This document shows, in pieces, positions 4,585 to 49,159 of a DNA stretch of 64,000 bases. This stretch comes from Bacillus sp. es.036 (lineage in GTDB: Bacteria; Bacillota; Bacilli; Bacillales; Guptibacillaceae). The position numbers were made by a program, and so were the translations under genes. Under the pieces are notes generated by a model. That model worked only from the letters and a program-made list of their open reading frames with translations, was not told where the DNA came from and did no database searches. The stretch's first letter is position 1, and each line of letters opens with the position of its first letter. Location of the stretch: assembly GCF_002563635.1 (NCBI RefSeq), contig NZ_PDIZ01000001.1:1736001-1800000 (forward strand), in the 5' to 3' direction.

Positions 4585-5055
4585 TCAACTATTTATATTA
4601 CTTTGCCACGTATTTGTTACAAATTGTAAAACCTGCTTTACCTGAGCTGAGACCGTTTCCATTTTGTATTGTTCATCCATATGTTCAAGTGGAATTGCCG
4701 GCATCCATAATAAAGCACTCGAGATTTGGTCCTCCACCTGTTTCCATTCTACATCGGCAGTTAAGGTGATAATATGTTTAATACCTCCTACATGCAATTC
4801 TTCCTCTATCTTTTTCAAGCGGTCCGTCTTAAAAGCTTGTTCCTCTGAAATTAAATAGGTATAAGCAGGTAGCAAAAGAAGACGACCTTTTAATTGTCTT
4901 TCTAGTTCATTTGATATGATTGAGATATACTCTCCCATTGATACGATCGTTTTCATACTGTTCGTCATTGATATTGGAACGAGTGGAAGAACGACTGTAT
5001 CTACATATTCTTTTTCTTTTTCAAATAACGCAATATCTGCTTCAGTCCATCTCAT
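4585..5055 (-). CDS. ypiF: DUF2487 protein YpiF
   Basis: 156 residues, soluble, with no catalytic motif I recognise. It begins MRWTEADI, typical of the DUF2487/YpiF family, and precedes qcrA as in B. subtilis. A GGAG site 8 nt upstream supports the ATG at 5055; an in-frame ATG 24 nt further upstream lacks a ribosome binding site. It overlaps the end of the preceding acetyltransferase gene by 14 nt, so the two are probably translationally coupled. Function unknown. Confidence 0.8.
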   Translation of the reverse strand: MRWTEADIALFEKEKEYVDTVVLPLVPISMTNSMKTIVSMGEYISIISNELERQLKGRLLLLPAYTYLISEEQAFKTDRLKKIEEELHVGGIKHIITLTADVEWKQVEDQISSALLWMPAIPLEHMDEQYKMETVSAQVKQVLQFVTNTWQSNINS

Positions 5056-5917
5056 TGTATAAACTCCTTTTTTGTCCATATAAACACCAAGTTGTTTGGT
5101 GAGAATAAGGTTCTAGCCACTTAGCCTGCTGTATTGGCAAGTCGATCCATATGGTTCTTGCTTCTTCTATCGCATAAGCGTTAACCATTTTCCACATGTC
5201 TCTGCTATATAGCGTTGTTTCATTTAAGACCTTAACATGCAAATACGAAGCACCTTTCTCTTCTTTCACCAGCATAAACCCACCCGTATCGTTAGCAAAT
5301 AGCTCTACTTGCTCAAGATAAGTGGAAGAAAGAGAAGGTAAGTATGGAAGTGGATAATAGATCAAGTAAGGGAAAAATGATTGACCACTCTCTTTCCAGT
5401 ACTTTTCGATCGTAGCTTTCTTATTCTCTTCTGTCACTCTATTAAACGACCTTGTAACGGTTTGTCCGATGATTGTGTGTGGACTTATACGAGAAGACAC
5501 AATTTGCGATTCAAGCTGCATCAGCAAATGAGGCGCTATACAGTTACCTCCCGTGTTATAGTCTTCTGTTGCATAGCCAACCCAGATAATAGCTGGGTTT
5601 TCAAATGCCTCAATTTGCAATGTATTCATTAATTCTGAAGCGATCCCTTTTTTTCGAAAATCACTATGTGTTCGTAATCGACCTAGGACAGCAGCTTCAC
5701 CTTCAAATATCGTCAGGCCAGCAATACCAACAAGCATTTCTTTCTTGAAATATCCTACTATCTTCTCTTCTTGCATTAGTTTATGTATGATGCGAATAAC
5801 GTAATCATCTTCTATCCCCGTGGGCATCTCTTTAACGAGAGGAATATCCTCGTATTCTAGGGTTCGAATCAACTCTTTCTCTCCTTTCATTAAGCCGATC
5901 TGTTCAATCTCATTCAT
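5042..5917 (-). CDS. GNAT-family N-acetyltransferase
   Basis: 291 residues. The segment around residues 62-100 has the GNAT core: a beta strand (VGIAGLTIF), then LGRLRTHSDFRKKGIASELM, whose R-K-K-G-I-A matches the acetyl-CoA pyrophosphate loop (R/Q-x-x-G-x-G/A). The C-terminal 150 residues are less conserved. The substrate cannot be read from the sequence. It sits between ypiB and ypiF, where B. subtilis has no gene, and overlaps ypiF by 14 nt. The ribosome binding site is weak (AGGGACGG) and two ATGs lie close together, so the start is less certain than the frame. Confidence 0.75.
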   Translation of the reverse strand: MNEIEQIGLMKGEKELIRTLEYEDIPLVKEMPTGIEDDYVIRIIHKLMQEEKIVGYFKKEMLVGIAGLTIFEGEAAVLGRLRTHSDFRKKGIASELMNTLQIEAFENPAIIWVGYATEDYNTGGNCIAPHLLMQLESQIVSSRISPHTIIGQTVTRSFNRVTEENKKATIEKYWKESGQSFFPYLIYYPLPYLPSLSSTYLEQVELFANDTGGFMLVKEEKGASYLHVKVLNETTLYSRDMWKMVNAYAIEEARTIWIDLPIQQAKWLEPYSHQTTWCLYGQKRSLYNEMD

Positions 5918-6017
5918 TCGCCGTCCCTAGTTCTTGCATTTCTTTCTAGTATATCATTTGTTTAGAAAGTGTTGAAGATTTTTCCTAGAACGCACGTTCC
6001 AAAATACTTAAGGCAAA

Positions 6018-48141: not shown

Positions 48142-49059
48142 TTAAGTAGTCAGCTTTTGAATTTTATCTTTGATCCAAACATCCCACTCATCTTTGCTAT
48201 TACCAACGAAAAAGGAGTCATAGGCCTGTCTCTTTTCACCGCGTAAATGCCCTATAGCAGCGCCACCTATACCGATCGTTAAATCATAGAAGCGCTGATC
48301 AAGGCGATCAACGAGGTCAAGGCATCTTGGTAAGTTTGCCATTAACGTACATGATAAAAATAATATTTTCGGATCTGTATCTTCCACAACCGTCTCAATA
48401 TCATCCTCAGGAATGCTTGCTCCTAGATAAATGACTTCAAATCCTTTTCTCCTTAAATAAAGAGTGAAAATCAACAAACCAAGTTCATGGTATTCTCCTG
48501 ACGAGCAAACCGCCATCACTTTCGGAAGATAACCATCAACAGGAAGGGTGTGGAATATCATTCCAATTCTTGATCGTAGAAAAGCACTTGTAAAATGTTC
48601 ATGTGCGATCGTAATTTTTTCATTTTCCCAAAGATCTCCTACCCTAACTAATAGCTGGGCAAGGATGTCATGTACTACCTTATCAATACTAAACACAGAA
48701 AACGCCTGATTCAACAAATCCTGAGCTTTATTCTCGTCGAAAGCAAGTAGCGCTTCTAATATTTCATCAGCAAGTATATGAGCTCGATCTCTTTCCATAT
48801 CAATTCCCATGCTATCTGTATCTGTTGAATCATTTCCATTTTCAAGCAATTCTACAGCTTGACTAATTGTAAAACCTTGTTCTGTTTTTTGGACAAGCCA
48901 TTTTAAGATAGACATATGTTCTTCCGAATAAAGACGATGACCTGCCTCATTTCTTATCGGAGAAATAATATTATAACGCCTTTCCCATGCCCTTAAGGTC
49001 CCGGGTTGTATTCCTAATTTCTTCGAGACCGCTTTTATATTATACTTACCTGCAGACAT
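48142..49059 (-). CDS. MerR-type regulator with cobalamin-binding domain (CarH-like)
   Basis: 305 residues. Residues 6-72 form a MerR helix-turn-helix (Y-N-I-K-A-V-S-K-K-L-G-I then T-L-R-A-W-E-R-R-Y and H-R-L-Y). Residues about 95-175 match the B12-binding helix bundle, with the CarH W-x9-E-H motif at W144, E154, H155. Residues about 178-305 are a Rossmann-type B12 domain with E189-Y-H191-E-L-G, whose His should bind cobalt. The residue after W144 is Glu145, while Thermus CarH has the photo-adduct His there. No enzymatic domain is fused. GGGG 9 nt upstream supports ATG 49059; 11-bp repeats over its promoter suggest autoregulation. Confidence 0.88.
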   Translation of the reverse strand: MSAGKYNIKAVSKKLGIQPGTLRAWERRYNIISPIRNEAGHRLYSEEHMSILKWLVQKTEQGFTISQAVELLENGNDSTDTDSMGIDMERDRAHILADEILEALLAFDENKAQDLLNQAFSVFSIDKVVHDILAQLLVRVGDLWENEKITIAHEHFTSAFLRSRIGMIFHTLPVDGYLPKVMAVCSSGEYHELGLLIFTLYLRRKGFEVIYLGASIPEDDIETVVEDTDPKILFLSCTLMANLPRCLDLVDRLDQRFYDLTIGIGGAAIGHLRGEKRQAYDSFFVGNSKDEWDVWIKDKIQKLTT

Positions 49060-49093
49060 CGTCATCTTCCCCTCTAGTACAGCCCTTATCACA

Positions 49094-49137
49094 CCTAGTA
49101 TAAGGGGTGAATGATGTTTGTGTAAACTTTGTATAAG
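49094..49137 (-). promoter_or_regulatory. Promoter and four tandem 11-bp repeats upstream of the CarH-like gene
   Basis: On the minus strand four consecutive 11-mers occupy 49137-49127, 49126-49116, 49115-49105 and 49104-49094: CTTATACAAAG, TTTACACAAAC, ATCATTCACCC and CTTATACTAGG. The first, second and fourth share a T-T-A-x-A-C core. They overlap TTTACA (49121-49126) and TATACT (49097-49102), an 18-bp-spaced promoter. CarH proteins bind tandem 11-bp repeats overlapping promoters, so this is probably the operator. Confidence 0.65.
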
Positions 49138-49159
49138 CAAATCGCTGCTTTTTTTGTAT

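Follow-up and report, generated by a model that had tools for sequence, protein, structure and literature searches.

The window analysed here, a 64,000-nucleotide stretch of the 4.34-Mb genome of Bacillus sp. es.036 (C1:1736001-1800000), carries a carH/litR-like gene whose product is very probably a class I CarH/LitR repressor dependent on adenosylcobalamin (AdoCbl), acting in the dark on its own gene, on both carotenoid (crt) operons of the genome and probably on an spx-like gene, and released by light without a bis-histidine adduct. The protein joins a known kind of regulator, CarH/LitR class I, and has a conserved glutamate at the ligand-switch position.

48142..49059, minus strand: carH/litR-like gene, 305 amino acids (Pfam domains, motif residues, alignment and fold)

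The Pfam models MerR_1, B12-binding_2 and B12-binding each exceeded their cut-offs in the 305-residue protein, which consists of a MerR DNA-binding domain (residues 6-73), a four-helix B12-binding_2 domain (97-167) and a Rossmann B12-binding domain (180-268). This is the class I CarH/LitR domain order, with the MerR helix-turn-helix at the N-terminus and both B12 domains at the C-terminus; the fold was checked for residues 90-305. The published light signature, W-x9-EH together with the lower axial histidine (GxxH) and GxxxP (PMC11796333), is present as GDLW, EH, GEYH and GASIP, the latter with Pro217. Alignment with the Thermus protein TtCarH (L235) gave 75 identities in 244 aligned positions (31%), the two proteins having the same domains and the same W, EH, GxxH and GxxxP residues; W131, H132, E141, H142 and H177 of TtCarH align with W144, E145, E154, H155 and H191, respectively. 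The Pfam matches and this alignment bear out the initial annotation, which had proposed a MerR-cobalamin protein with Trp144, Glu154-His155, Glu189 and His191 at these places and with Glu145 instead of the adduct histidine (His132); the assignment of Trp144 and Glu145 against W131 and H132 was checked specifically and held. The best family match was the CarH equivalog NF052513 of NCBIfam, at 138.3 bits and so below its curated equivalog cut-off of 400. By analogy with family members, cobalamin binding, a change of oligomeric state, repression and a light response would be expected. It is highly improbable that the protein is instead a B12-independent repressor of the CarA type, with the cobalamin domain serving merely as a protein-interaction module: CarA of M. 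xanthus does bind its operator whether B12 is present or not (PMC9304148), but W144, E154, H155 and H191 are invariant across alignment A1, whose 13 sequences include TtCarH. A supply of AdoCbl in the host is plausible, since the genome has two adenosyltransferase genes plus a match in a 1164-residue frame with the length of MetH.

The region upstream of the gene contains a repeat array that overlaps a promoter-like pair.

49096..49139, minus strand: putative operator of four tandem 11-bp repeats (nnnnTnnACAn), of which two are full and two imperfect (sequence; conservation in the genus)
49121..49126, minus strand: -35-like hexamer TTTACA, overlapping repeat 2
49097..49102, minus strand: -10-like hexamer TATACT, coinciding with repeat 4

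The TnnACA units start, in 11-bp steps, at 49135 (TATACA), 49124 (TACACA), 49113 (CATTCA, imperfect) and 49102 (TATACT, imperfect), and they follow the published consensus nnnnTnnACAn (PMC9304148). Four tandem 11-mers over a -35/-10 pair, as initially described, are thus present at 49139-49096. The best three-repeat score in the 150 bp upstream was 10 of 12, a value matched by none of 100 base shuffles; in 12 other loci of the genus the best score was reached by 0-5 of 100 shuffles. Stronger evidence for the repeats is the conservation of TTATACAAAGTTTACACAAAC, a 21-mer spanning the first two repeats, which is identical in all 13 genus carriers while its flanks diverge (e.g. L012), and which occurs once in the window even with up to three mismatches allowed. 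The array over its own promoter supports the earlier suggestion of probable self-regulation.

Relatives were sampled among 397 genomes of the order (taken to be Bacillales in the wide sense), 254 of which have a relative at E<=1e-25. The 66 loci from other genera comprised 16 loci, 40 chosen to span many families and 10 of 12 further loci, the divergent L212 and L213 being left out. A three-repeat score of at least 10/12 at 11-bp spacing was found at 40 of the 66, namely at 33 of the 45 loci with crtI-family genes in the genome versus 7 of the 21 without. The spacing control was imperfect, as triples scoring at least 10 were nearly as frequent at 9 bp (36) as at 11 bp (40), the numbers at 7, 8, 10, 12, 13, 14 and 15 bp being 1, 2, 1, 5, 1, 1 and 1; with at least 11 required, there were 27 at 11 bp, 14 at 9 bp and 0 or 1 at every other spacing. 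We think that the 9-bp signal arises because TTTACA and TACACA both lie inside TTTACACA.

That the window holds no carotenoid gene was true of its annotated part, but at a distance of about 450-470 kb (C1:1314378-1333368) the genome has two crt gene clusters with matching repeats, so the idea of a carotenoid-free CarH was rejected. The four crtI-family genes of the genome are all located there: cluster 1 has two crtI-family desaturases and a phytoene/squalene synthase-like gene, and cluster 2 a desaturase, a CruF-like protein, a glycosyltransferase and a further desaturase; both are called operons on the basis of gene order. Each crt promoter has three TnnACA units in 11-bp steps matching 11 of 12 positions, the sole such matches in the respective 13-kb and 20-kb stretches (there are two in the 64-kb window), and all 13 genus genomes having these genes retain the repeats. 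A scan of the genus with a 19-bp pattern, allowing up to three mismatches, yielded no more matches than the reversed control, and one recurrent intergenic site directly upstream of a crtI-family gene. With the three-unit pattern, 14 genomes gave 37 matches versus 7 for the reversed control. Of the 37 matches, 14 were a single site with 12 of 12 positions, present in 14/14 genomes between a gene of the Spx/MgsR family (membership confirmed in L193) and a divergent 81-residue open reading frame (ORF). The proposed search for further copies of the 11-bp repeat was rewarded at both crt promoters and at this spx-like site, and the class I operator type, tandem nnnnTnnACAn over a promoter, is found as sequence at all of these as well as at the gene itself. 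One genome (G006) has no crtI-family match and retains the regulator with its array as well as the spx-like site.

The repeats at the crt and spx-like genes might belong to another regulator or be mere constrained promoter boxes, the protein controlling only its own gene. Since they overlap -10/-35-like boxes, they could be conserved in any case, and one genome (G011) keeps these sites though no orthologue-level match for carH was found in it. We nevertheless consider this explanation improbable, as 11-bp phasing and the published TnnACA consensus occur together at all four promoters. G011, rated 100% complete, also has no orthologue-level match for mecB or ypbG; the missing block is likely an assembly gap, or else a recent loss. 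It was for this reason rejected as a natural knock-out and is uninformative on function.

Two further kinds of site were noted in passing. At 5947-5975 of the window (minus strand), three TnnACA-like units in 11-bp steps (11/12) lie about 30 bp upstream of an ORF of the GNAT family (5042-5917, minus strand). Three full TnnACA units are also found in five genomes of the genus, with a similar arrangement in a sixth, at the start of an 80-residue ORF or immediately ahead of it (e.g. G000:C3:560182-560209, L180, L190 and L192), whose neighbours, judged by eye in three genomes, resemble argS and a spore-germination gene.

In the reading we prefer, that of a light-released dark repressor, the protein would bind AdoCbl in the dark with His191 below the cobalt and with Trp144 and Glu154 against the adenosyl group, whereupon the AdoCbl-bound protein would oligomerise and its MerR domains would occupy the tandem 11-bp TnnACA repeats over the -35 to -10 region. 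RNA polymerase would thereby be blocked, and the regulator gene, the two crt operons and probably the Spx/MgsR-family gene would be repressed. Light would cleave the Co-C bond, the oligomer would fall apart or loosen and the promoters would be freed, so that pigment and a redox-stress regulator would be produced when light is harmful. The same three kinds of target, i.e. self-repression, crt and spx-family genes, are reportedly described for CarHBm of Bacillus megaterium in a 2018 abstract in the Journal of Biological Chemistry. CarHBm, compared here by description, likewise has MerR and cobalamin domains; it is associated with light-controlled crt genes (PMC6739363) and forms a dimer when exposed to light (PMC9304148). 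Its operators consist of four tandem 11-bp repeats, or three and an imperfect one, overlapping the -35 or the -10 (PMC9304148), unlike the two full and two imperfect repeats seen here. TtCarH has three operator repeats where four are present here, and its gene adjoins a phytoene/squalene synthase gene, whereas the carH-like gene is not beside crt genes. Furthermore, Arg176 and Asp201, which form the head-to-tail dimer contact in TtCarH (PMC10442372), are replaced by Tyr190 and Ser215 in alignment A1. The photocobilins SasPcob and AbDPcob differ in having other output domains, in binding biliverdin and in not being MerR-type repressors.

The glutamate itself does not make the protein unusual, as had initially been supposed. 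It occupies the place of residue 145 in 13 of 13 genus carriers and in 63 of the 66 loci of other genera, the remaining three having Met (two) or Arg (one), with the tryptophan absent in two; the view of Glu as an oddity of this gene was rejected on these counts. Among the relatives sampled, Glu145 is the norm. A tree of 80 rows, two of which share one sequence, groups 75 rows in one clade (support 99/95), outside which fall TtCarH, a copy from a Bdellovibrionales metagenome-assembled genome and three divergent copies. The Bdellovibrionales copy and two of the divergent ones (L075 and L212) have Glu, and the third (L213) has Ala. All three non-Glu rows of the large clade fall in a single subclade (f22; L139, L152 and L210), where Met or Arg stands at this place and, in one member, Tyr replaces the Trp; no clear repeat array was seen in the upstream regions of L139 and L152, and decay of the switch is possible in this subclade. 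The divergent copy L075 (G014:C29:19546-20226) is a second copy in a sister genus, its match spanning residues 49-267 and containing a TGA.

With Glu as residue 145, the His177-Co-His132 arrangement of Thermus CarH is excluded as the light state. It has been reported that the residue after the Trp varies in light-responsive proteins, being Arg, Gln or Tyr (PMC11796333), and we therefore treat His132 as specific to the Thermus mechanism and not as a family trait. A parallel in this respect is CtMerR of Chloracidobacterium thermophilum (PDB 8JBS/8JBT), a CarH-type protein without the histidine; it has Arg where Glu is found here and is 20-21% identical in the structural alignment. CtMerR is a tetramer in the dark and a monomer in the light, and in its anaerobic light structure Glu166 is reoriented and makes a water-mediated contact to cobalt (PMC11796333). 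By this analogy, a water- or carboxylate-ligated light state is more likely for the present protein.

A light-insensitive sensor of cellular AdoCbl, which would repress when AdoCbl is plentiful and would not disassemble in light for want of the adduct histidine, must also be weighed. The equivalent of His132 is indeed absent, and the H132A variant of TtCarH stayed mostly tetrameric after illumination, though an earlier study had seen disassembly according to the same paper (PMC10442372). That such a sensor is the right description nonetheless seems unlikely: repeats at carotenoid and Spx-family loci are more in keeping with light stress than with B12 status, CtMerR with its Arg monomerises in light without the histidine, and an Rfam scan of the window gave no match and hence no cobalamin riboswitch at Rfam's threshold. 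More tentatively, Glu145, or a water held by it, could replace His132 as the upper Co(III) ligand after photolysis, giving a His-Co-carboxylate state; CarH would then comprise a second photochemical class, one that has become fixed in most of the order's members, with a redox-stress role in the 92 of 254 genomes that have a relative of the regulator and no crtI-family match; we put this forward as a doubtful proposal.

Across the 397 genomes, a relative of the regulator (E<=1e-25) and the crtI family (E<=1e-80) occurred together in 162, the regulator alone in 92, crt alone in 20 and neither in 123. The crtI family was thus found in 162/254 genomes with a relative versus 20/143 without, kinship being ignored in this comparison. 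Seen from the other side, 20 of the 182 crt genomes have no relative of the regulator. If these proteins respond to light, the Thermus CarH mechanism cannot be general, because its key histidine is a conserved glutamate in most sampled relatives across the order. In a marine Bacillus-like genus, the four promoters provide a testable set that connects B12 photoreception with carotenoids and with a stress regulator of the Spx family, and the proteins offer parts without the histidine for green-light optogenetics. Among the matches listed in a literature search, with subscription papers mostly outside it, no paper paired the genus or species name with CarH and none paired CarH with Spx.

The closest named loci are those of Pseudalkalibacillus hwajinpoensis and P. 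spartinae, with protein identities of 96.7-98.7%, and the genus is accordingly taken to be Pseudalkalibacillus. The neighbouring genes are presumably gudB, ddl, a PIG-L family gene and mecB (MecA family), followed after the carH-like gene by ypbG (calcineurin-like phosphoesterase). The location between ypbH and ypbG given in the initial annotation stands in that mecB and ypbG flank the gene, but it is not peculiar to this genome: at all 66 loci examined in other genera, the flanks contain a mecA-family gene, a ypbG homologue or both. The frame is open as far as a TTG at 49140, which was discarded as the start because it lies upstream of the -35/-10-like pair. The ATG at 49059 is kept across the genus, while an alternative ATG at 49065 is missing from some carriers, among them L015 and L038, and a ribosome-binding site precedes the conserved codon.

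49069..49075, minus strand: ribosome-binding site AGAGGGG, spaced 9 nt from the ATG at 49059 and retained, slightly varied, across the genus alignment
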